From: a virus | IMG/VR virus record: IMGVR_UViG_3300025137_000123 | Location: 1-35,281 of that record | Length of the DNA stretch: 35,281 nt | Direction: 5' to 3' (one strand) | In this document: one piece after another, positions 11,226-35,281 of the stretch | Numbering within the stretch: the stretch's first letter is position 1 | How the letters are laid out: every line of letters begins with the position of its first letter | The notes under the pieces: model-generated | Database searches by the model: none | Told to the model about the DNA's origin: nothing | What the model saw: the letters and a program-made list of their open reading frames with translations, nothing else | Translations under genes and position numbers: made by a program

Positions 11226-11317
11226 TAAGCTGATTTTTTTTTCTTAGACTTCTTTATTTTTTTAGTCTTCATTATTTTCTTTGAACCTTTTCCGTAGGTC
11301 TTTGATCCTTTTGGCAT
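11222..11317 (-). CDS. 31-aa lysine-rich protein, last late gene
   Basis: The start is the ATG at 11317, which shares its A with the TAA of the spanin-like gene, with AAAGGA just upstream. The product starts M-P-K-G-S-K-T-Y-G-K-G-S-K-K and ends in runs of lysine. M-P-K-G-x-x-T-Y-G is a common opening of tiny basic phage proteins of unknown function. A longer frame starting at 11419 would only add residues overlapping the spanin-like gene. The stop overlaps the stop of the convergent early operon. Confidence 0.55.
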   Translation of the reverse strand: MPKGSKTYGKGSKKIMKTKKIKKSKKKKSAY

Positions 11318-11685
11318 TATCCTTTGTACCTTCCTAATGTTATTGTTTTTAAAAATCCTCTCCATATCTCTATTGGTGAGGGGAGTACCCATCCTAAGAC
11401 GAGTAGGAGTATTACCCACATGGGTATGTCTTGATTCATCACACTAATCTTACCCACGTCACCAGCAGGTTTGATAGCTGACGTTTCAATCTGTACAACT
11501 TCGGCATTAATCTCTTGATCTCGACTCTGATCAACAAGAGATTGATTGTTTTCTTTACCTACTTGAGTGTTGGCTGCAACATTAGTACCACCACTTTTAC
11601 TGCCACCACTTAACATCTTTGCTACACCAAGGGCAGCACAACCAGATAGAGATAGGGATAAGAGTAGGGCTATTATAAGTTTCAT
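11317..11685 (-). CDS. lipoprotein with C-terminal membrane segment, candidate u-spanin
   Basis: A 122-residue protein opens with a lipoprotein signal (hydrophobic 3-13, lipobox L-S-G-C16). A polar, Gln/Ser/Asn-rich linker (about 25-85) follows, then a membrane segment around 88-103 (P-M-W-V-I-L-L-L-V-L-G-W-V-L) and a basic tail. Outer-membrane lipid anchor plus inner-membrane C-terminal span is the layout of unimolecular spanins such as T1 gp11, which join the two membranes at lysis. The neighbour upstream is a cell-wall hydrolase. Assignment rests on topology and context, not on sequence match. It implies a Gram-negative host. Confidence 0.6.
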   Translation of the reverse strand: MKLIIALLLSLSLSGCAALGVAKMLSGGSKSGGTNVAANTQVGKENNQSLVDQSRDQEINAEVVQIETSAIKPAGDVGKISVMNQDIPMWVILLLVLGWVLPSPIEIWRGFLKTITLGRYKG

Positions 11686-11697
11686 TAGTTATCTTTC

Positions 11698-13071
11698 TTA
11701 AGGGTACATCTCATCTTCAAGTTGTTCTGTTCTATTCCAACGAATTTGTGCTGGTGTTAACGTCTCCCCAGTTTGTATTGTGTTGTCGTGTCCCACTATT
11801 CTTCTAAGTTTATTCCTAGTCAGATCACCTATAAAAAAGTCATTTCTAGTACTACTGCTTGAACCTGCTTTACTGGTTAAATAGGCCATAGCTACAGGTG
11901 CAGCATACTTAGGATCATTGACAAGTTCAGGGTTTGAGATTAAATCTATACCTAGAATTTTACCTATAGCTTCGTAGTTTGAACGTCCTGTAAGCTGAAT
12001 CAAACCTCTGCCCTTAAATCTAGAGCCATCTCCTACTTGGGTGTTGCCTAGTTTGGAGCTGGTATCACGGTATTGGTCATCATAGTAGATGTCAAAGATC
12101 ATATCATTCTTAGTTGCATCATCTGCAGCAATCCAATCGGGGTCAGTAGCAAGTGCATTAAAGGCGGCAGCCCTTGCAACCCTAAATCTACCTTGCACTA
12201 ACGTCGGATGGACTGCTAACTCAGCAGGTGTTCTATTACTCCCTTTAACACTTGAGTAAAGGTAAGGGATCTCTACAAGATTTCTACCCCCTGTCTCTGC
12301 TTCAACTGTAGCCACAAATGCAGCAGCTTTAATAGGATCACTAATGTTTTCTTTAGCCCAAGTCTTTACTTTTGCTAAATCAGGAGCAGTACCAGCTTCA
12401 TTAAGTACAGATTTTCTTGTAGATTCTTTGCGAGAGTCTAAAAAATTTGGATCTTTCATAGCAGCTAAAGTTTCGTCATTTAGTTCTTCTGAAATGGGTA
12501 GGCCATTTTTAGACTGCCATTTTACTAGGCTACGTTTAGAAATATTACCCCAGATACCGTCAGCAGCTACCCCAAGGTACTCTTGAGCATCTCTATTTTG
12601 TGCATTAGTTCTTGGCTGAGGTTGTTGATTATTAGTTTCTAAAATTGTTTGTTGATCAGGGTCTAAAGATCCCCTTAACACCTGAGTATTAATACCTTCA
12701 ACTTCAACTGGTGGTTGTTCTGTCGTAGGTTGTTCGGTCGTGGGTTGACCTTCTTTTTTTATTCTTTGCTTGTAAACATCAGGGTCTTCAATGTAGTACT
12801 CCATACGAATTGGATTTGAAGGAGAAAAGTATTCTTGTAATTGAATATTTAAGTCGTCCATTTTATTTTTCTCTGGAATGTAATACTCTTGAGCACCTGG
12901 TTCTGTTGTTGTAGCTTCAGAAGGACTGAAATAATTTTTTATTTCTGAAAACAAATCAACAAAAGTTTCACCCAATACATCTGATATTGTTTTTACTTCT
13001 AGTGACTTATTAAGTTCCATTGTGTCGAGTGCAATACCAAGTAGCTTACTATCTTCTCTTAATGCTGGCAT
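11698..13071 (-). CDS. peptidoglycan-binding / GH19-like lysin
   Basis: A 457-residue protein. Residues 1-125 are an unrecognised region with a duplicated Y-F-S-P-S...E-Y-Y-I motif (47-65 and 81-94) and a T-T-E-Q-P linker. Residues 160-206 resemble a peptidoglycan-binding domain (D-G-I-W-G). Residues about 230-450 are a lysozyme-like GH19 domain with candidate catalytic Glu in V-E257-A-E259-T-G-G and the signature G-D-G-S-R-F-K-G-R-G-L-I-Q-L-T-G (347-362). It cleaves cell-wall glycan. It has no signal peptide. Being directly downstream of the ejection-protein genes and long for an endolysin, it could be a virion-borne lysin for entry, a lysis enzyme, or both. Confidence 0.8.
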   Translation of the reverse strand: MPALREDSKLLGIALDTMELNKSLEVKTISDVLGETFVDLFSEIKNYFSPSEATTTEPGAQEYYIPEKNKMDDLNIQLQEYFSPSNPIRMEYYIEDPDVYKQRIKKEGQPTTEQPTTEQPPVEVEGINTQVLRGSLDPDQQTILETNNQQPQPRTNAQNRDAQEYLGVAADGIWGNISKRSLVKWQSKNGLPISEELNDETLAAMKDPNFLDSRKESTRKSVLNEAGTAPDLAKVKTWAKENISDPIKAAAFVATVEAETGGRNLVEIPYLYSSVKGSNRTPAELAVHPTLVQGRFRVARAAAFNALATDPDWIAADDATKNDMIFDIYYDDQYRDTSSKLGNTQVGDGSRFKGRGLIQLTGRSNYEAIGKILGIDLISNPELVNDPKYAAPVAMAYLTSKAGSSSSTRNDFFIGDLTRNKLRRIVGHDNTIQTGETLTPAQIRWNRTEQLEDEMYP

Positions 13072-20458: not shown

Positions 20459-20929
20459 TTATTCTCCTAAATACTTACTGTAAATTCTTTCAATTTTTTC
20501 AAATCCTAATCTTTTTAAAACAGGATCAAAAGGTTTATGAACTTTTGTGTTAATTAATAATACGGAAACACCACGTTTTTTTAAATCTTTTTCCACATAC
20601 TTAATAAGAAAGTAACCAGCTAAACCTTTTCTGTAATCAGGATCTATAAAAAGAATATCATTTGAAACAAAAACATGGTCTTGGTAGTGTGGATGATTAC
20701 GAGCTATAACAACAAAGTAACCTACAAGTTTTTCAGAGTACCTTATAGTATAAACACCTAAACTTCCTTGCTCGTACAAAGCTTCATAAAAAGACCAATC
20801 AGGGTTTAACTTTATTTTATCTTTATTTATTGCAATTTCTTCCCAGTGTTTGTAAAAAAGTTCATCTACTTCTTTTTTTACTTTAAAAAAATCTTCTCTT
20901 TGTATTTTAAAACCTTTGATTGACTGCAT
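20459..20929 (-). CDS. GNAT-family N-acetyltransferase
   Basis: A 156-residue acetyltransferase fold. Motif A is D-I-L-F-I-D-P-D-Y-R-K-G-L-A-G-Y-F-L-I-K-Y (residues about 90-110), holding the acetyl-CoA-binding R-x-x-G-x-A/G loop, and is followed by helix K-Y-V-E-K-D-L-K-K-R-G-V, strand V-L-L-I-N-T and L-K-R-L-G-F-E-K-I. Residues 65-80 form the preceding strand (L-V-G-Y-F-V-V-I-A-R-N). It transfers an acetyl group to an unknown target. It sits inside the tail/ejection gene run and overlaps the tail-tube B gene by 23 bases, so it is made late. Similar genes occur at this place in other podoviruses. Confidence 0.85.
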   Translation of the reverse strand: MQSIKGFKIQREDFFKVKKEVDELFYKHWEEIAINKDKIKLNPDWSFYEALYEQGSLGVYTIRYSEKLVGYFVVIARNHPHYQDHVFVSNDILFIDPDYRKGLAGYFLIKYVEKDLKKRGVSVLLINTKVHKPFDPVLKRLGFEKIERIYSKYLGE

Positions 20930-27135: not shown

Positions 27136-28872
27136 TTATATTCCTAACTCGTCAGCTAACATTTGTTGTTCAATGTCTTTTGTTTCAGCAGACTGAGCTT
27201 CTTGTTGAGTTTCCATTTGTTCTTCTACACCAATGTTTTCTTTAAAGATAGAAGGTTCTCCTAATTCATCAGCTAGAATTCTAGCAAATTCTTTTCCTGA
27301 AAGATGGACAGCAACAGTAGGATCAGATAATTTAATTTGGTAGAGTTGAGTAAGGTTTTGTAATCTTCTTGCTCTTTCAGCAAAATGTCTAGCTCCTATG
27401 GGAGTGATTCTTCCTCTACCTACAATGTCTTCTTTTGAAACATCCATGAAATAAGTGTTACCATTCTCTTCTACTTTAATAGTTTCTAAAGTATTCATTG
27501 TTCTTCGAGAAACTTCTAACATAGCATTAAGAATTGGCTCTAAAAATACTCTTTCAAAATGAGCAGTTTTGTGTTCAAATATTCTTGAAGAAGAGTTCTG
27601 TAAACTTTGTACTTCGAAAGCTGTCTTTTCTCCTGGTGTTCTAATACCCATAGCCTGTCGTGGAGCACCAGCCATCTCTTCCATAATGTCAGTAATGTTT
27701 CCTATTTGTAAGTCTGCTTGTAAAGCTGTTGTGTCAGGAGCCATGTAACCCACATCACCTTCTTCACCAAGATAAATTCTTGCCCCTGGTTCAAATACAA
27801 AGTCTTCAACATCCCCTCTAATTTTTAGAATAGGGTAAGCTATCTGGTCAAACACATCTGCTTTAAGATTTTCTAAGTGGTCAATTCTGTACTGTAGTCC
27901 AACAAGATTATCTAGTGGCCCCATTGCATAGAGATTGTCAGGTCTTGGTCTCCATCCTGCATGAAAGATTGGTGCTGTGCCAAACCAACTTGGATTTTCT
28001 TCGTTAGCTAAAATATAAGCTCTGTCTACAACAGTAATAATTCTATCTGTAGACAATTTATTTGTTTCTGCATCGTAGTAGTCACCGTAGAATGTAAGAA
28101 TTTCTACATAGTTAGACTCGTAGTATTGTTGTATTGAGGAAAATCCGTCAGCAATATAGCCATCAGCTTTTTCGTAAGTACCACCACCTCTAACGGCTGC
28201 TCTTGCTTCCATCATTTTAGTAAAGACACCACTCATGTATTCTTTTGACGGATCGTTTTCAATCATTGTTTTAATTTCACCTAGTGTTTTTATTGTTTTA
28301 ATAATCTTAGGTGTCTTGTGAAATTCTGCAGCAGTTGGGTTAAATACAATATCGTAAGGTGAAACACGAACTACTTTTGGGCCAACGTAATTAACATTTA
28401 TTTCTCCGTCTTTCTTTTCGTTGACATCTCTATCAAAAACTACAGTAGCAAAACAGTTTCCGTATTGAATATAATCATATAGTAAATCAGAAGCTACAGT
28501 TGTAAAATGAGACTGAGTAATTTTTGATTTCATAAAGTTTTCAATAATAGTTGTCTTGTCAAACTCAGTAGCTTCAGGATTACTAGCCTCAAACTTCATC
28601 CAGTTCTGTTGTGGAAACAAAGATGCAAAGTAGTTAGCATGTAAGTTATCCATGATCTGTGTAAGTTTTGGAGTTGTTGTAGAGTTTGACCAAGGCAACA
28701 TAGAGTTTGTAGTTGTTCGAGTGTCAGTGGCATAGATGTAGTTACGGAGTTCTTTCCATTCCTCAATCTTTTTCTGTCTTAAAGTATTCCACTCTCTCCA
28801 CCGATTAGCTATCTCAACAGCCATGTGGTCAGGGTCGAGCATATACTCAAGTTCTATTGTTTCTCCTGCCAT
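27136..28872 (-). CDS. portal protein (T7 gp8-like head-tail connector)
   Basis: A 578-residue portal. Features are the N-terminal W-R-E-W-N-T-L-R-Q-K-K-I-E-E-W-K-E-L-R helix, N-S-M-L-P-W-S-N-S, H-A-N-Y-F-A-S-L-F-P, the central G-P-L-D-N-L-V-G-L-Q-Y-R-I-D-H-L-E stem-type helices, and A-P-R-Q-A-M-G-I-R-T-P-G-E-K-T-A. Such proteins form a dodecameric ring at one head vertex through which DNA is packaged and ejected. The C-terminus is Gln/Glu-rich. The ATG overlaps the terminase stop (TAATG). Confidence 0.9.
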   Translation of the reverse strand: MAGETIELEYMLDPDHMAVEIANRWREWNTLRQKKIEEWKELRNYIYATDTRTTTNSMLPWSNSTTTPKLTQIMDNLHANYFASLFPQQNWMKFEASNPEATEFDKTTIIENFMKSKITQSHFTTVASDLLYDYIQYGNCFATVVFDRDVNEKKDGEINVNYVGPKVVRVSPYDIVFNPTAAEFHKTPKIIKTIKTLGEIKTMIENDPSKEYMSGVFTKMMEARAAVRGGGTYEKADGYIADGFSSIQQYYESNYVEILTFYGDYYDAETNKLSTDRIITVVDRAYILANEENPSWFGTAPIFHAGWRPRPDNLYAMGPLDNLVGLQYRIDHLENLKADVFDQIAYPILKIRGDVEDFVFEPGARIYLGEEGDVGYMAPDTTALQADLQIGNITDIMEEMAGAPRQAMGIRTPGEKTAFEVQSLQNSSSRIFEHKTAHFERVFLEPILNAMLEVSRRTMNTLETIKVEENGNTYFMDVSKEDIVGRGRITPIGARHFAERARRLQNLTQLYQIKLSDPTVAVHLSGKEFARILADELGEPSIFKENIGVEEQMETQQEAQSAETKDIEQQMLADELGI

Positions 28873-30410
28873 TATGCGGCTCCTCTAAATCTGTTATTAG
28901 CCCAAACAATATTGTTTTTCATTGTACGATTAATACTTTTTGATGGTTTAATTGCAATATCAATAGCTGCAGCTAAAGCATCTTTTATATCATCGTGTGG
29001 TGGATGTCTGGACATTAACTCTTCTTCCAACACTTGTATATTTCCTCCACGATAGTGCCATATTTGTAGGTTATCGTACCTTGGCTCTAGTGTCGCAGCT
29101 ATACGTTCTTCTTTATTTCCTTGATGTCTGTTAGGTCTGTATTCATCTATACTAATTGACAACCCATGTTGTTTAATTAATTCTTTTAGCTGAACAACAA
29201 TAGCTTGTTGTGCTACTGTAACCTCTGCTCTCATTTTTCTAAACGACCATTTAGTTGACAACTCTAGTATATGTTTAAAGTACTCAGATATTCTGTCTGT
29301 TCTAAATCTGTCTATATCTAAAACATAAATATTATTTTGAGAGTCTACTCCTACAATAACAAGTGCTGTGTAGTCTGCTTTCTTTGACAAACTAAATGCA
29401 AAGTCTACGGCTGCAAAGATATTTAATTTACTTTCTTTGTAGAACCAGTAACCACTTTCTTCTCGTAGATGTTTACGTTCAAAGTATTGAAACTTGTTTC
29501 TCTCTACTGGTACGTTGTCTGGATCACTAGGATCATTGTAATACTGTGCTTTAAACTGAGACTTGTCTAAGTACTGTCCTCTTTTTTTAGCTAGTATTTG
29601 TCGATTAAACCCAAACTGTTTGCCGTCTTTTCGTGACTGTTGAGGCCACAAGAACTCTCCTGTTCCGTCCCCTCTGTCCTCAACAGCTCTTTCTAAAATT
29701 TCGTATATCTGTTCTTCAGATACTTTGTTGCCATCATCGTCATACTTGTCTTCAACCATTTTCATTAGGTTACTATAAAGATCAGAAGGATGATACCTTG
29801 TTCCTACAATCCATTCTCTCGCATTAGTTCCTTCAATCGAGGATAAGAGGGAGTACTGACTCTTAACTTTTTCTCTACCTTCCCCTGTGTAGGCGTTTTC
29901 ATATACGACAACATCGTCCAAAACAGCAATGTCACAGTGCATACCAGTAAGTGAGGTAGTGAGACCACCTGTAAATATAGACGGATCACGAACATTTTCC
30001 TTTTTTCTAAGTGGGTGGTCTAACATAATTTCTGATGTTGTCCACCTTACACGTTTACCTTCTTCCTTTTGTACATGGTCAGGCCAGTATCTACGGAAGG
30101 TGTTTGATGTTAGTATTCCTTTAATAAATCCTAACTGTTTTTCTGCAAGGTTAGCTGTCGCAGATATATAAAGTATTCTAAGTGTCGGGTCTTTAGTTAA
30201 CTCCCATGCTACACGATAAGCAATCATTCGAGACTTACCATGATCTCTTGGGAAGAGTAGTAGTTGGTGGGTCTTACTGTTTTCTTTAGTCCACCACTGA
30301 CACATATCTTCGTGACATTGTCCTAGTAATTGTTCAGGTGCAATAAGTTTAATAAAAGTAATTAGATCACTTTCTGCTGCATCCCTTATGTCATCTTGGG
30401 TTACTACCAT
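28872..30410 (-). CDS. terL: terminase large subunit (packaging ATPase-nuclease)
   Basis: A 512-residue TerL. The ATPase has Walker A F-P-R-D-H-G-K-S-R (53-61) and Walker B I-A-V-L-D-D166 with the adjacent catalytic acidic residue. The RNase H-like nuclease has D336 (A-A-V-D-F-A-F-S), an acidic E396 (R-A-E-V) and D474/D477 in P-H-D-D-I-K-D-A. It pumps and cuts phage DNA into the prohead. It overlaps the upstream 85-residue gene by seven bases and the portal gene downstream. No obvious small terminase is visible in the window. Confidence 0.95.
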   Translation of the reverse strand: MVVTQDDIRDAAESDLITFIKLIAPEQLLGQCHEDMCQWWTKENSKTHQLLLFPRDHGKSRMIAYRVAWELTKDPTLRILYISATANLAEKQLGFIKGILTSNTFRRYWPDHVQKEEGKRVRWTTSEIMLDHPLRKKENVRDPSIFTGGLTTSLTGMHCDIAVLDDVVVYENAYTGEGREKVKSQYSLLSSIEGTNAREWIVGTRYHPSDLYSNLMKMVEDKYDDDGNKVSEEQIYEILERAVEDRGDGTGEFLWPQQSRKDGKQFGFNRQILAKKRGQYLDKSQFKAQYYNDPSDPDNVPVERNKFQYFERKHLREESGYWFYKESKLNIFAAVDFAFSLSKKADYTALVIVGVDSQNNIYVLDIDRFRTDRISEYFKHILELSTKWSFRKMRAEVTVAQQAIVVQLKELIKQHGLSISIDEYRPNRHQGNKEERIAATLEPRYDNLQIWHYRGGNIQVLEEELMSRHPPHDDIKDALAAAIDIAIKPSKSINRTMKNNIVWANNRFRGAA

Positions 30411-30661
30411 GCTCTACAAGACCAATACCTAGCTTTTGTTTTAGGGCCAGGAGTATCACAGTTATGCCTAGCCCTAAAGTTTTTCTTTCTTCCAGGAATA
30501 TTCTTTTTAATTGTCATGTTAGGATCACCGAAGGTAACTCGTTTTGTTTTACTACCGTCTTTAACGTAGACAACAGATTTCTTTTTACCGTAGCTTGTTT
30601 CTCCTTTAGAGATACGTCTAGGTTTATTTAACTTTACACTTTTACCTTGGTAAGCAGCCAT
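30404..30661 (-). CDS. DUF5872-like basic protein (85 aa) in the terminase-small position
   Basis: An 85-residue, very basic protein: N-K-P-R-R-I-S-K-G-E-T-S-Y-G-K-K-K-S-V, V-T-F-G-D-P-N-M, and at the C-terminus F-R-A-R-H-N-C-D-T-P-G-P-K-T-K-A-R-Y-W-S-C-R-A-W. I recognise the C-terminal R-H-N-C...A-R-Y-W-S-C-R-x-W pattern from DUF5872-type proteins in marine phages, function unknown. The two cysteines and histidine could hold metal. It occupies the place where T7 has its small terminase (gp18, 89 residues), but shows none of the acidic, helical features of that protein. Confidence 0.7.
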   Translation of the reverse strand: MAAYQGKSVKLNKPRRISKGETSYGKKKSVVYVKDGSKTKRVTFGDPNMTIKKNIPGRKKNFRARHNCDTPGPKTKARYWSCRAW

Positions 30662-30825
30662 TACTCTGGAGCTTTTTCTTTTAACACAATACCTAAAATT
30701 CCTGAAGCAATACCAATAAAGATTAGCTCACCTACTCCACTGATTACACCTAATCCAACTATGCCAACACCAACGGCTGCATAACTTGAAGGTTCGGTTG
30801 ATCTTGCTTTAATCCAATTTATCAT
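30661..30825 (-). CDS. holin-like small membrane protein (54 aa)
   Basis: ATG at 30825, TAA at 30663-30661 sharing one base with the next start. The product opens M-I-N-W-I-K-A-R-S-T-E-P-S-S-Y-A-A-V, followed by two Gly-rich hydrophobic stretches (about residues 16-30 and 34-48: G-V-G-I-V-G-L-G-V-I and L-I-F-I-G-I-A-S-G-I-L-G-I-V-L), ending K-E-K-A-P-E. Short protein, two hydrophobic helices and a charged tail fit a small class II-type holin, and its position one gene upstream of terminase resembles T7 gp17.5. No lysis test can be read from sequence. Confidence 0.65.
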   Translation of the reverse strand: MINWIKARSTEPSSYAAVGVGIVGLGVISGVGELIFIGIASGILGIVLKEKAPE

Positions 30826-30840
30826 AATACTATTCCTTAT

Positions 30841-31557
30841 TTAATTATCCAATAGTGGATTTGTTAAAGCTTGCTTAATTTTCATATCTAAGTTTTCTTC
30901 TAGTGTTACAATTTTTAAGTCAAGCCTGTCTACTTTTGAATCCATTCGTATTTCAAAAGAACTTATTACACCTCTAACGTCTTCGATGTTTTGTCTATTT
31001 CGTGATTCTTGCTTTGCCATATCAGACTCAGCTTGGTCTAGGTCTTCTTTAACTTGAGTGCTCTGAGTGTCCATAGCTTTTTCTACACTACTTATATCAA
31101 GTTTAATTCTTCGTTCTTGCTTTTCAATATTTTCTTCAAACGAATCTAAAGTTTCTTTTAATCTGTTTTCTTGTTCATTTATACTGACTTCTATTCCAGA
31201 TATGTCTTCTCGTAGTTCTATCTTTGCATCGTGGACACTTGCCGATACGTTAGCTACTGAAGACTTTATTGAGTTAACCTGTTCTCTAATCATTTCGTTA
31301 ACAAGTAAGTCTGCTTCTTTGAGATTACTAAACTGTTCTTCTATAATGTTTAGTTGGTTCTCTACCATTGTTATATGTTTATCAATGTGGCTAAGGTCAG
31401 GGCTTACAAAATTAGCTATTTTTTTTTCCATTGCCAAGTATCTATTGTAGGCTTCGAATCCCCCATACAAACCCCCAATAATTGTACCGACAAGGGGTAT
31501 AATAAGAAGTAGCTTAGAGCCACCTATCTTCAGTCCCTTGTATTCGACCTCTGCCAT
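30841..31557 (-). CDS. membrane-anchored coiled-coil protein (238 aa)
   Basis: A membrane helix at about residues 15-33 (L-L-L-I-I-P-L-V-G-T-I-I-G-G-L-Y-G) is followed by some 190 residues of coiled coil with regular heptads and a repeating pattern of K/Q-E-x-R-x-K/R...D-I-S/E-x-V (around 115-205). It has no cysteine. Anchor plus long rod is similar to an inner-membrane spanin or a membrane tether, but there is no Rz1-type partner inside the gene, and a candidate u-spanin already exists at 11317-11685. The place is between a tiny basic protein and the holin-like gene. Function unknown. Confidence 0.7.
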   Translation of the reverse strand: MAEVEYKGLKIGGSKLLLIIPLVGTIIGGLYGGFEAYNRYLAMEKKIANFVSPDLSHIDKHITMVENQLNIIEEQFSNLKEADLLVNEMIREQVNSIKSSVANVSASVHDAKIELREDISGIEVSINEQENRLKETLDSFEENIEKQERRIKLDISSVEKAMDTQSTQVKEDLDQAESDMAKQESRNRQNIEDVRGVISSFEIRMDSKVDRLDLKIVTLEENLDMKIKQALTNPLLDN

Positions 31558-31559
31558 CT

Positions 31560-31700
31560 CTAACCTTTTTTCTTTTTAGGAAAGCCAGCTTTCATATTAG
31601 CATATGCTTCTGGGGAAATAGTACTGTTTTTTTTAGAACGAGAAGTCTTGTTCTTTTTTCTTTCATTCATGTTTGCATATAAGCCTTTTCGTTTTGCCAT
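31560..31700 (-). CDS. 46-aa basic phage protein (MAKRKGLYANM type)
   Basis: ATG at 31700, TAG at 31562-31560. The product opens M-A-K-R-K-G-L-Y-A-N-M, has a run of Lys/Arg/Ser, then S-P-E-A-Y-A-N-M-K-A-G-F, and ends in five basic residues. This opening recurs in tiny proteins of many T7-like phages; function unknown, possibly nucleic-acid or capsid binding. It lies two bases upstream of the membrane-anchored coiled-coil gene and starts four bases after the exported 506-residue gene. Confidence 0.7.
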   Translation of the reverse strand: MAKRKGLYANMNERKKNKTSRSKKNSTISPEAYANMKAGFPKKKKG

Positions 31701-31704
31701 GTCG

Positions 31705-33225
31705 TTACCTTTTATACTGCATGTTTACAAGATTATCCATTGCTGCGTTTGACCCACCAAATAAAACAAACGAAGCTAATCCATTATCTTTTATCTGTGT
31801 GTCTGGTATTCGTGTTGCTGAAAAGAAACCAGGAGTATCTGGTATTGCTAACTGGTTACTAAAAAAATCTTTTGTATTTCCTAAGACTTGCATAACAAGT
31901 AAAGTCTTTAGTTGGTTTGTCTCATCGTACCTACCTTTATCACCCATCTTATTTATTATTTTACCTGCAGCTTTTTCTTTTTGTTCTGCTTTTGTTTGCT
32001 TGGGTTCAGGTTTTTTTTCAGCTACTTTTGTTTCTTTCTTAGGTTCTTCTTTTGTTTCTACTACATCCTCTGCTGCTTTTTCAGGTTCAGGTTCTGGTTG
32101 TGGTGTAGGTTCTATTTCTGGTTCTGGAGCTTCCATTGGTTTTGGAGGTGAAACTTCAGTTTCTATATCCATCTCCATATCCATTTCAACATCTATATTT
32201 AACTCAAGCTCTGTCATTACTGGTTCAACATTCATTTCAGGAACTTTAAAGTCTATTTCAAAATCAGGAAGTTCCATTTCAAGTTCAACAGTTTCATAAG
32301 AAACATCAGTATCTTGTATTGGTTCAAAGTCAATCATACCGTCAGGTTGTTCAACAATGTCGTTGTGTTCAAATATATCTTCAACAATGTCCAGTTCTTC
32401 TTGAGTGGCATCTCCGTTTAAATAAACATAAGATTCTATAGTTGTTATTGTTTGTTGGACTATTCTTGATATTACATTATAAAGTACGTTTACAGAAACA
32501 TCATCAAATACAGGCCCAATGTCTAGGTTTATATCTCTTCCACCTATCTCCAATAAAATAGAAGTAAGCCCACCATGAAAATTAAAACTACCAGTATACT
32601 GTGAGTATCCACTATTCACCCCCGAAGCTGATAGAAAGTCTGTTCCCGAAAATTGGGTAGCACTTCCATCTTTGCCAGTTATGTGTATATAAATGCTATC
32701 ACTTGCATCTTGTTTATCTACCTTAATAGTATAAGTTGTTTTACCACCATTGTCAATGTTTAAATTTTCTATGTCTATAGTCTGTTTAAATGTTGTTCCC
32801 ATATTAGGGACACCCATTGTGCTTGTTGTGGAGCCACTACCTCTTATCTCTGCACATTTATCTGTACCTAAATCTCCACACCTTGATCCAGTTGGCATAG
32901 AAGCTGGCCCCTGCCCACCCCAGTCAATGTCCATATCACCTTCTTTAGATGAAGACACGAACCCATTACCACCGTCTAATAAATCACCTGAATCTTCGTT
33001 AGTTACTGTAGTAGTTGTTGTATCGGTTACAGTAGTTTCAATAGTGGTCACACCTTGACCATCGTTATTTGTTTCAACTGTTGTGGTTTCTGTTGTGTCA
33101 ATAACAACTTGAGGGGTACATAAACCTACAACATCTGTAGCACAATTTAATTCTGCACTAGAGTAAGAGGATAAAAGCAAGTATAGACAAAGGGGTAGAC
33201 CAACGATTTTTACTTTCGTATTCAT
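31705..33225 (-). CDS. large exported protein with acidic and Pro/Glu/Lys-rich rods (506 aa)
   Basis: An N-terminal signal peptide (basic N-T-K-V-K, hydrophobic 7-19, small residues before about 24) is followed by Cys28, Cys36, a Thr-rich stretch (44-77), and Cys116 and Cys124. A beta-rich domain of about 140-270 comes next. Then an acidic Met/Glu/Asp repeat zone (312-358), a Pro-Glu then Lys-rich rod (359-420) and a compact C-terminal domain (421-506) follow. The rod recalls TonB-like periplasm-spanning linkers. The start overlaps the previous gene by 68 bases; no other start keeps the signal. Phage proteins with Sec signals are uncommon among late genes. Possible roles are envelope remodelling, receptor masking or lysis control; none is shown. 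Confidence 0.75.
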   Translation of the reverse strand: MNTKVKIVGLPLCLYLLLSSYSSAELNCATDVVGLCTPQVVIDTTETTTVETNNDGQGVTTIETTVTDTTTTTVTNEDSGDLLDGGNGFVSSSKEGDMDIDWGGQGPASMPTGSRCGDLGTDKCAEIRGSGSTTSTMGVPNMGTTFKQTIDIENLNIDNGGKTTYTIKVDKQDASDSIYIHITGKDGSATQFSGTDFLSASGVNSGYSQYTGSFNFHGGLTSILLEIGGRDINLDIGPVFDDVSVNVLYNVISRIVQQTITTIESYVYLNGDATQEELDIVEDIFEHNDIVEQPDGMIDFEPIQDTDVSYETVELEMELPDFEIDFKVPEMNVEPVMTELELNIDVEMDMEMDIETEVSPPKPMEAPEPEIEPTPQPEPEPEKAAEDVVETKEEPKKETKVAEKKPEPKQTKAEQKEKAAGKIINKMGDKGRYDETNQLKTLLVMQVLGNTKDFFSNQLAIPDTPGFFSATRIPDTQIKDNGLASFVLFGGSNAAMDNLVNMQYKR

Positions 33226-33808
33226 TAGCTCTTAACTTTTCCTCTCGTTTAATTTGTAGTGCTTCTTGTTTTGCTGACTGTAGTTTTTCTTTTGCATCTT
33301 TTTTAGCCTTGATACCTGCTAATTTTTTTTCTTTTTCTAAAGTTATTTTTTTTACTTCGTAGATAACTTTAACGTCTGAACCTTCAGGTATAAGTTCAAT
33401 ATTCTTTTCCCAAGTTTCTTTTGCATTTTTGCCAATCTGTCCCATAAAAGGACAAGGTGTACCTGCCATCCACATTGCATCAAAAACTCTGTAGTCCATA
33501 CATAATGTAGATACTGCAGCAACTTTCATTCCCATACCGTACAAAGACCTGGCTAGTTTTATTCTTTCACAGTTCTGGTCTGTAATTGTAACTCCTGTAG
33601 CAAACCCTAGTACTTGAGTTTGTACTGAAGCTGCGGCTGCAGACTTACATACGTCACTATTGTTTACTACAACAGATGGAGCACTGGCTGTTGGTGGAGC
33701 TTTATCTGTAACTACTGTACTGCTAACAGTATTACTATCGGCAGCTAGGACAGGACTACAAGCAAAGAGTGTTAGAGATACCAAACAATAACGTAAGACA
33801 TGTTTCAT
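33158..33808 (-). CDS. exported Cys-containing protein with hydrophobic C-terminus (216 aa)
   Basis: A signal peptide covers about residues 1-23 (hydrophobic 9-22, P-V-L-A-A-D cleavage-like; an L-F-A-C lipobox-like alternative exists). The mature part has C54, C80, C103 and C119 in K-S-A-A-A-A-S-V, N-C-E-R-I-K-L-A-R-S-L, A-V-S-T-L-C-M-D and A-G-T-P-C-P-F. I recall this core in marine phage proteins of unknown function. A highly charged helix (150-200) leads to a short hydrophobic end (203-216). The four cysteines could form two disulfides in the periplasm. It is coupled to the XhlA-like gene upstream and overlaps the next exported gene. Confidence 0.72.
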   Translation of the reverse strand: MKHVLRYCLVSLTLFACSPVLAADSNTVSSTVVTDKAPPTASAPSVVVNNSDVCKSAAAASVQTQVLGFATGVTITDQNCERIKLARSLYGMGMKVAAVSTLCMDYRVFDAMWMAGTPCPFMGQIGKNAKETWEKNIELIPEGSDVKVIYEVKKITLEKEKKLAGIKAKKDAKEKLQSAKQEALQIKREEKLRANEYESKNRWSTPLSILAFILLL

Positions 33809-34035
33809 TTTATTCCTATAATATTAAGCAGACCCATTAAACCCATTTGATCTGCTACAACAAAAACTGCAGCACCTACTGCAAACCATTTAATTTGAAT
33901 TAAAGTTTTATGTATGGAGTATAGAGAAGACTTTAATTCTTTTGATACACTTCTTAATTCTTTAATAGACTCTTGGTGTCGATCAAGTGTCCATTCAACT
34001 TTGTTGATACGAGCTTCTATGGGTTGGTCGTTCAT
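33805..34035 (-). CDS. XhlA-like coiled-coil membrane protein (76 aa)
   Basis: Residues 1-48 form an amphipathic helix with heptads (I-N-K-V-E-W-T-L-D-R-H-Q-E-S-I-K-E-L), followed by a membrane segment at about 50-70 (W-F-A-V-G-A-A-V-F-V-V-A-D-Q-M-G-L-M-G) and a short hydrophobic end. Soluble coil plus C-terminal span is the XhlA layout, a holin-associated family. It overlaps both neighbours by four bases. With the 54-residue holin-like protein it may form the pore-making part of lysis. Assignment is from topology. Confidence 0.6.
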   Translation of the reverse strand: MNDQPIEARINKVEWTLDRHQESIKELRSVSKELKSSLYSIHKTLIQIKWFAVGAAVFVVADQMGLMGLLNIIGIK

Positions 34036-34199
34036 TCGTATGCAACTCCTATTGTATTATTTTCTGCCACCCATTCAAGGATAGCTTGGTAGTGTCTGTT
34101 GGCTGGGTCTATTGGGACAAACATAGTCTTCCCATCTGCAACTAATTTTATACCTTTTTGGCCGTCATTACTTGTATATCTTGCCGAGTTAATAATCAT
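34032..34199 (-). CDS. 55-aa hypothetical protein downstream of tail fibre
   Basis: ATG at 34199, TGA at 34034-34032 overlapping the next start (ATGA); ribosome site AGGAGTG just upstream. The product begins M-I-I-N-S-A-R-Y-T, with G-I-K-L-V-A-D-G-K-T-M-F-V-P-I-D-P-A-N-R-H-Y and I-L-E-W-V. It resembles short proteins that follow tail-fibre genes in many phages (A-x-Y...V-P-x-D-P-x-N-x-x-Y pattern). They may be fibre chaperones or caps; no function is proven. Confidence 0.72.
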   Translation of the reverse strand: MIINSARYTSNDGQKGIKLVADGKTMFVPIDPANRHYQAILEWVAENNTIGVAYE

Positions 34200-34207
34200 A
34201 ATCACTC

Positions 34208-35275
34208 CTATAATTCTGCATCAAAAGTTAGAGTTGCTGCACCATCAGAATGTAAAGCTACAGCTTGTCCTGAAGTTAAGTTTGCGGCTACGTTGGCTCT
34301 AAAAGACAAAAACTGGTTATCTTGACTTATATCATCTATAGAAGTTATTGCTTGTTCTGAACCCCCAGCATAAAGTATATTAAAATTTGTTTCAGTGATG
34401 GATGGGGAGGTTCTCATAGGTATATGAAAACCAAATCTTGCAACAGTGGAGGTTTGAACATAACCTACTAGATGGGCTGTTCTATTATCTGCTCTTACAA
34501 TGTCAGTGTAATAACGACTACACAAAGCTAACTCTTGCCCATATGAACGATGCTCAAAGGGTGTGGCTACTGGGCCGACTTCCATCTGGACTCCAGTTAT
34601 GAAAAACTCGTTGTTAGTGCTACTGTAAAAACTACCTATACCTGCAGCCCTGTTTGCGTTAGTATTTGATACCCAAGAAGTTTGAAGTGTACCACTAGAA
34701 TACTGTGATCCTGAGTGTAACCAAAAGGCAAGATCCATACTATTAGCATTATCATCACCAAAAGCACCAGTTGTATCTGCTGGAAATGTTATTTCGTGCC
34801 GAACCCAATCAGTTGTTGTAGCATATAATTTAGAAACTCCCCTAAAATTGTCTCTATCAAATAACTCTAAAATAAAGTTAAATGCTCCACTAGCTTTAAC
34901 ATAGAAGCTTACTGTTATCTGCTCTGCGGCTGACGTACCTTTTTTTATTCTCTGTAGATTCTGTCCTTCAAATAACTGTCTAAGAATAAGATATTCTCCT
35001 GCGTCAACAGAGGTATCTGCGGTGGTACAATCTAGTTTAATACAATTAGCAAACCCACTAGGGCCATCTGCTGTTTGTGTCATCGTAAGTCTACCAGCAG
35101 AAGATCCTTGCAGATTCCACCTATCACAAGTTGGATAACTGGTAGCACCACCTAATGCTGTTGCTGACGTAGCCCTTTGAGACACTTGCATAGCACCATT
35201 AATTACAATATTTCTATTGCTTAAAGCCGTTTCGGAGGCACTGGCTAAACTGGCTAATTCTGCGGCTTTACTCAT
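34208..35275 (-). CDS. tail fibre / receptor-binding protein
   Basis: A 355-residue protein. After an Ala/Ser-rich lead (1-18) comes S-N-R-N-I-V-I-N-G-A-M-Q-V-S-Q-R, the typical opening of a fibre domain shared by many phage tail fibres. Then follows C-D-R-W-N-L and a jelly-roll-like region with carbohydrate-binding features: I-T-V-S-F-Y-V-K-A-S-G and F-F-I-T-G-V-Q-M-E-V-G-P-V-A-T-P-F-E-H-R, ending near 250, plus a C-terminal tip of about 100 residues. It recognises the host surface. There is no T7 gp17-like N-terminal tail-attachment domain, so attachment may use another protein outside the window. It is the first visible late gene; its promoter would lie beyond 35281. Confidence 0.82.
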   Translation of the reverse strand: MSKAAELASLASASETALSNRNIVINGAMQVSQRATSATALGGATSYPTCDRWNLQGSSAGRLTMTQTADGPSGFANCIKLDCTTADTSVDAGEYLILRQLFEGQNLQRIKKGTSAAEQITVSFYVKASGAFNFILELFDRDNFRGVSKLYATTTDWVRHEITFPADTTGAFGDDNANSMDLAFWLHSGSQYSSGTLQTSWVSNTNANRAAGIGSFYSSTNNEFFITGVQMEVGPVATPFEHRSYGQELALCSRYYTDIVRADNRTAHLVGYVQTSTVARFGFHIPMRTSPSITETNFNILYAGGSEQAITSIDDISQDNQFLSFRANVAANLTSGQAVALHSDGAATLTFDAEL

Positions 35276-35281
35276 TATTCT

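Follow-up and report, generated by a model that had tools for sequence, protein, structure and literature searches.

What is the role of the small genes that lie between the tail fibre and the terminase of a marine podovirus, and do they act together? The question is raised by the IMG/VR virus record IMGVR_UViG_3300025137_000123, a T7-like marine podovirus type of 35.3 kb (35,281 nucleotides; this whole stretch of DNA is called the window here). An earlier note on this DNA had described six open reading frames (ORFs) at this place as a single envelope unit. All six are present, on the minus strand and closely packed between a tail-fibre-like gene and the terminase gene. Three of them form the main subject here. 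E1 (33158..33808, minus strand) encodes an exported protein of 216 aa, and E2 (31705..33225, minus strand) an exported protein of 506 aa. CC (30841..31557, minus strand) encodes a protein of 238 aa with an N-terminal membrane anchor, a long coiled coil and a C-terminal NPL motif. E1, E2 and CC are a real, conserved three-gene unit, and this trio probably builds a so far undescribed structure within the infected cell's wall.

Completeness of the trio was counted where the flanks of a locus permitted the test. In loci located via E2, E1 adjoins E2 in 62 of 62 cases and CC lies downstream of E2 in 66 of 66. When the loci were located via two different CC proteins, E1 and E2 were upstream of CC in 79 of 79 (50/50 and 29/29). 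The IMG/VR searches for relatives of E2 and CC used single proteins as queries. At the 112 loci around E1, the following gene is nearly always E2, then CC. The three remaining ORFs encode an XhlA-like protein, a basic peptide and a 54-aa membrane protein. Their relatives were found in 5, 14 and 9 loci, respectively, against 249 loci with E1 and E2; because they rarely accompany E1 and E2, they were rejected as members of the unit. The proposal of one functional unit in the envelope, whose genes stay together in relatives, stands for E1, E2 and CC and falls for the other three. The gene order is kept across hundreds of homologues, and the long ORFs are therefore not chance. In an independent IMG/VR contig, gene content and order are the same and E2 is 100% identical to that of the window, so the locus is not an assembly artefact. 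In two roseophages, CRP-810 (L007 5641-6204) and CRP-207 (L115 2510-3295), E1 and CC are kept and the middle protein has no similarity to E2 by profile.

E1 and E2 have the N-termini of exported proteins. By simple rules applied to the sequence rather than by a trained predictor, a signal-peptidase-I-type (SPI-type) N-terminus was called in 204 of 213 distinct complete E1 proteins and in 192 of 219 E2 relatives, against 184 of 1500 background ORFs. A lipobox was called by such rules in only 12 of the 213 E1 and 6 of the 219 E2, and both proteins of the window have an SPI-type site. An N-terminal hydrophobic segment is present in 231 of 244 relatives of CC. The NPL end of CC is invariant in an alignment of 50 sequences and kept in 235 of the 244 relatives.

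The E1 protein consists of a signal peptide (...SPVLA, then ADS), a Ser/Thr/Asn-rich linker, a four-Cys domain, one long helix and a hydrophobic tail. Cys 54, 80, 103 and 119 are invariant or nearly so in the profile of 54 sequences, and part of the E1 relatives contain long Asn/Thr-rich repeats. The AlphaFold2 (AF2) model has a mean predicted local distance difference test score (pLDDT) of 85.7. E1 resembles predicted structures of uncharacterised phage proteins; a fold search of the PDB gave no convincing match among solved structures, which is not proof of a new fold. Its best family match is phrog_20531 (4.7e-11), a PHROG without an assigned function. The genes E1 and E2 overlap by 68 nt (33158..33225, minus strand), where the first codons of E2, those of its signal peptide, are read in the +1 frame relative to the E1 3′ end, which encodes the hydrophobic tail. 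All 49 loci with the hydrophobic tail of E1 overlap E2 in this way, and none of the 28 loci without the overlap carries the tail. Because the tail is confined to loci in which the overlapping frame encodes the E2 signal peptide, a general role as membrane anchor was rejected for it. The overlap may have given rise to the tail, or the tail may be the reason for the overlap. The overlap-encoded E2 signal peptides are enriched in T-first codons (42% vs 25%), which hints at dual coding.

In the AF2 model, E2 is composed of a signal peptide, a Thr-rich beta hairpin, a jelly roll resembling a carbohydrate-binding module (CBM), an acidic disordered rod and a helical C-terminal domain. The jelly roll corresponds to residues 76-250 (32476..33000, minus strand). 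The model of this head aligns by VIA-align with the sugar-binding domain of Fbs2 (Z 13.3), with CBM16 (Z 12.5) and with CBM4-2 (Z 10.6), and Foldseek gave E 4.7e-5 at prob 1.00. The predicted structure therefore has the CBM jelly-roll fold (Z up to 13). The likeness to CBM16 and CBM4 modules and to the Fbs domain is one of fold (Z 10-13), whereas the sequence identity is 9-14%, no Pfam match is above the cut-off, and fold alone shows no function. E2 does not belong to any CBM sequence family, as no family was found for 50 E2 members; the E2 of the Autographiviridae fosmid phage S28C10 scores 16.8 bits against CBM_4_9, below the cut-off of 25.9. The fold search also matched the E2 head to tailspikes and central fibres of phages. 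Residues 288-410 (31996..32364, minus strand; pLDDT mostly <50) are the acidic disordered rod, which the earlier note had called TonB-like. It shares with TonB a long charged Pro-containing stretch, but E2 has neither an N-terminal anchor nor the TonB C-terminal domain. The match is compositional (NCBIfam, residues 355-419, 17 bits vs a cut-off of 315; no Pfam TonB), and the label was too strong. The C-terminal helical region (residues 412-505; 31711..31992, minus strand) is conserved in the sequence alignment and has a low-confidence AF2 model.

The matches of CC in the family libraries are coiled-coil background; in PADLOC these are chance matches to ZorA/JetC of at most 14.8 bits. None of the three proteins has an explanatory family in Pfam, PHROG, NCBIfam or PADLOC, and no description of them was found in the literature searched. 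The envelope unit is undescribed in the libraries searched, as the earlier note had supposed.

Relatives of E1 were found in 11 phage records and at least 598 IMG/VR contigs, and the trio genes are annotated as hypothetical in most records. The trio is present in podo-, sipho- and myovirus-type pelagiphages. The records include Baldr (with podovirus-type genes), HTVC202P (with a tape-measure gene), HTVC033P, HTVC023P, HTVC115P, the myovirus Mosig and S28C10. HTVC033P is of the HMO-2011 type (PMC9038755). Baldr and HTVC202P are 67%, 60% and 44% identical in E1, E2 and CC, while no similarity is seen between their portals, and the terminases are 21% identical over part of the length. The E1 proteins of Baldr and HTVC033P are 71% identical. 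The hosts of Baldr, HTVC202P and HTVC033P are all SAR11. In S28C10 the trio lies between the tail fibre and the terminase, as in the window. In HTVC119P, a congener of S28C10, the stretch from tail to terminase that was read (19.0-38.4 kb) lacks both E1 and E2. These identities and the difference between S28C10 and HTVC119P indicate that the trio is an optional cassette exchanged among unrelated phages of the same bacterial group. A scan of bacterial genomes gave 23 loci, nearly all on short viral-looking contigs within bins of metagenome-assembled genomes. Since these contigs look viral, the loci were not taken as evidence of a cellular family.

A distant homologue of E1 is present in the Achromobacter phages phiAxp-2, AXY1, ART and 2-1, which represent three unrelated phage types, as judged by the size of their genomes and by gene context (iterated profile E 1e-4; hhalign 95.6%; Cys pattern conserved). 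It is always preceded by an exported Gly/Ala/Ser-rich repeat protein, which is not a relative of E2. The pair (L357 44598-45710; L359 3323-4399; L360 3409-4555; L361 3269-4402) is located in the replication/accessory region, without annotated lysis genes next to it. The Achromobacter protein is like E1 in that it lies beside another exported protein and is common to unrelated phages of one host genus; it differs from the trio in the absence of E2 and CC and in its place among replication/accessory genes. An exported E1 with an exported partner across unrelated phages of one host favours a role at the host envelope without a tie to lysis.

With fair safety, the trio can be considered a functional unit acting in the periplasm or at the surface, in which CC is the tether, E2 a glycan-binding-like head on a rod, and E1 a disulfide domain. 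The N-terminal segment of CC would anchor it in the inner membrane, from which the coiled coil would reach outward, and E1 and E2 would be exported by Sec. The sugar-binding-like head of E2, on its long acidic tether, could contact an envelope glycan, presumably peptidoglycan, lipopolysaccharide or a surface polysaccharide, and E1 would supply a disulfide-type domain. Expression of the trio would be late, together with that of the tail and packaging genes, and the complex would alter the envelope of the infected cell. Its purpose might be to deny the surface of that cell to other phages or to the phage's own progeny after release, an effect known from Cor-like exported proteins made late in infection. 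The analysis established the order and obligate co-occurrence of the genes, their export signals, the fold of the E2 head and the joint transfer among unrelated phages; that the proteins form a complex, bind a glycan, are made late and serve this purpose is what we infer. It can be proposed, tentatively, that E1, E2 and CC form a phage machine of a new kind, a three-part, envelope-spanning, glycan-binding complex, which is swapped as a unit by several unrelated marine lineages and works beside the usual lysis proteins without replacing them.

Lysis genes are frequent neighbours of the trio, which weighs against receptor blocking as its purpose and could instead indicate an accessory lysis or egress module. 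Such a module would act alongside endolysin, holin and spanin, helping to disrupt the outer envelope or setting the moment at which this happens, and it may be an adaptation to the kind of envelope that alphaproteobacteria have. Counted in gene ranks from E1, genes of the lysis class are found from -4 to +8, and ranks +10 to +15 contain none. In locus L068, a complete lysozyme-holin-Rz-Rz1 cassette (Rz/Rz1 as Rz-like spanins) is directly upstream of the trio. In L036, the trio, an XhlA-like gene, a lysozyme gene and a holin gene follow consecutively. The position of the trio in the window resembles that of the holin and Rz/Rz1 genes of T7, whose slot is before the terminase. In addition, CC has the predicted topology by which an i-spanin is defined, an N-terminal transmembrane segment followed by a periplasmic coiled coil (PMC6139136). 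However, random placement in the same loci reproduces the distances to lysis genes. The median distance is 2 genes in both, and a lysis gene is at most 3 genes away in 66% of the observed cases vs 62% of the random placements; these loci are short windows centred on E1, which limits the power of the control. As there is no excess over random placement, the adjacency is suggestive only and was rejected as proof of a lysis role. The endolysin of the window (11698..13071, minus strand) has a GH19 domain (phrog_181, 3.1e-27; PF00182, 6.9e-8, above the cut-off). It is followed by the window's own u-spanin (11317..11685, minus strand), which has the lipobox LSGC and a C-terminal membrane segment (NCBIfam spanin2_3, 1.7e-13, 50 bits, under the cut-off of 80; phrog_1804 Rz-like spanin, 2.1e-6). 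Both are 18 kb from the trio. The lysozymes of HTVC115P are also distant from it, and the Achromobacter relatives of E1 have no annotated lysis gene beside them. The reading of the trio as the lysis system is weakened, and an accessory part in lysis is possible but doubtful.

In several pelagiphage-like contigs (e.g., L036 4020-4256), a recurrent family of exported multi-Cys proteins of 69-80 aa (phrog_19893) is encoded between CC and the genes for lysozyme and holin.

The topology of CC would also suit a replacement spanin, with CC as the i-spanin and E1 or E2 as its outer-membrane partner. The +1-frame overlap of E1 and E2 resembles the overlapped genes of Rz/Rz1, and no convincing gene for a spanin lipoprotein was seen in the searched parts of HTVC115P, HTVC202P, Baldr and S28C10. 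HTVC019P, however, is without E1 and E2 and likewise shows no spanin-type lipoprotein, and the trio and the spanin are therefore not mutually exclusive. An o-spanin is an outer-membrane lipoprotein with a lipobox, which E1 and E2 lack apart from the few relatives counted above. E1 does not fit a u-spanin either, since it has no lipobox and the hydrophobic C-tail is found in a subset only. Canonical Rz/Rz1 pairs are beside the trio also in L027 and, by profile, in L064 and L069, and after it in L076. These pairs and the distant endolysin and u-spanin of the window indicate that the trio is not a spanin. As E1 and E2 have no lipobox and the trio coexists with canonical spanins, its membership as a substitute spanin was rejected, and this explanation is quite improbable.

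The repeats of some E1 proteins, and the Gly/Ala/Ser-rich partner of the Achromobacter relative, could point to a surface structure or adhesion. The exported proteins would then form a fibre or matrix altering aggregation or nutrient capture, in the style of curli. Pelagiphages are known to carry exported multigene cassettes, of curli or type VIII secretion, that have spread across phage families (PMC9599517). Against this, E1, E2 and CC have no match to Csg proteins, including CsgG and CsgF, in Pfam, PHROGs or NCBIfam, and the cassette contains no outer-membrane pore. A surface structure is an unlikely explanation. Another explanation takes the trio as virion components with an exported look. 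The trio is among structural genes, and tailspikes and central fibres share the fold of the E2 head. But the SPI-type signals are kept in about 90% of the relatives, the partner is membrane-anchored, and the trio is optional within one genus. The export signals make a role confined to the virion unlikely, and this explanation is very improbable.

There is a slight preference for receptor blocking or superinfection control, a purpose that is plausible at somewhat less than even chances, over a contribution to lysis. The preference comes from the exchange among phages of the same host, the proximity of the tail fibre, the sugar-binding-like fold, the independence from lysis genes in the window and in the Achromobacter phages, and the precedent of Cor. 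The late-gene position between tail fibre and terminase, in both the window and S28C10, also counts for it. Several points stand on the other side in addition to the neighbouring lysis genes. The trio matches no known exclusion protein, and no match to a defence protein above chance level was found in PADLOC. Cor and Llp are lipoproteins, and E1 and E2 are not. The head of E2 evolves no faster than the C-terminal region. Since the two are equally divergent, an arms race is unsupported in the head, and a hypervariable head was rejected.

In the order of transcription, the locus consists of the tail fibre, a 57-aa protein, the XhlA-like protein of 76 aa, E1, E2, the basic peptide of 46 aa, CC, the membrane protein of 54 aa, a basic protein of 85 aa and the terminase. 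The tail-fibre-like gene (34208..35281, minus strand; phrog_4492, 1.8e-49) is truncated by the window end. The block of six ORFs has one additional small gene at either side, 34032-34205 and 30404-30661. The latter (minus strand) encodes the 85-aa protein (phrog_7595), before the large terminase (28872..30410, minus strand; phrog_38, 2.4e-90). Three neighbours inside the block are not obligate. The 76-aa protein (33805..34035, minus strand) has a C-terminal membrane segment and weak family matches (PF10779, 18.5 bits vs a gathering cut-off of 34.7; PHROG hemolysin, 3.8e-4), for which the name XhlA-like given by the earlier note says too much. The gene of the 46-aa basic peptide (31560..31700, minus strand; phrog_25774) has DNA relatives 73-77% identical elsewhere in several pelagiphages and methylophages, and in HTVC119P and HTVC019P they are between the scaffold and capsid genes. 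Judged from these sequences, it is a small gene that shifts its genome position. The 54-aa protein (30661..30825, minus strand) is holin-like, with two predicted membrane segments. In the rest of the window, the plus strand encodes a primase-helicase, a DNA polymerase, a Cas4-type nuclease and a ribonucleotide reductase, and the minus strand endolysin, internal virion proteins, tail, capsid, portal, terminase and tail fibre. A gene for a GNAT-type acetyltransferase (20459-20929, minus strand) is inside the structural operon, and a putative acetyltransferase gene is annotated at a comparable position in S28C10, following tail tubular protein B.

Few biological entities on Earth outnumber SAR11 bacteria and their phages, yet to our knowledge the action of pelagiphages on the host envelope is barely known. 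The trio matters in this respect, as it occurs in at least 598 IMG/VR contigs and in phages of unrelated architecture, SAR11 hosts included. It is obligate, small and present in cultured phages (HTVC033P, Baldr, HTVC202P, HTVC023P, HTVC115P and Mosig), and the question is therefore directly testable. The Achromobacter relative of E1 offers a readily cultured entry point.

Other known systems can also be compared with the trio. Spanins (Rz/Rz1; T1 gp11) share with it the i-spanin topology of CC, partly overlapping genes and lysis genes often nearby. The trio differs from them in its three components, the absence of a lipobox on E1 and E2, the large CBM-like domain, and its coexistence with real spanins, including that of the window. 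Cor (phi80/N15) and Llp (T5) are late exported exclusion or receptor-blocking proteins, each a single small outer-membrane lipoprotein. Like them, the trio is predicted to be Sec-exported, is near tail-fibre genes and is optional among relatives. Unlike them, it is a set of three genes with an inner-membrane anchor, and the lipobox of an outer-membrane lipoprotein is missing from E1 and E2. For a methylophage, curli pores and an S-layer-like protein have been the subject of speculation (PMC9004378). The curli cassettes of pelagiphages are, like the trio, exported multigene modules passed between SAR11 phage families. The trio consists of different proteins, without CsgG, CsgF, CsgA/B, FecR or a kinase. 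The pelagiphage curli cassette, a different gene set, is the nearest published precedent for the trio (PMC9599517).

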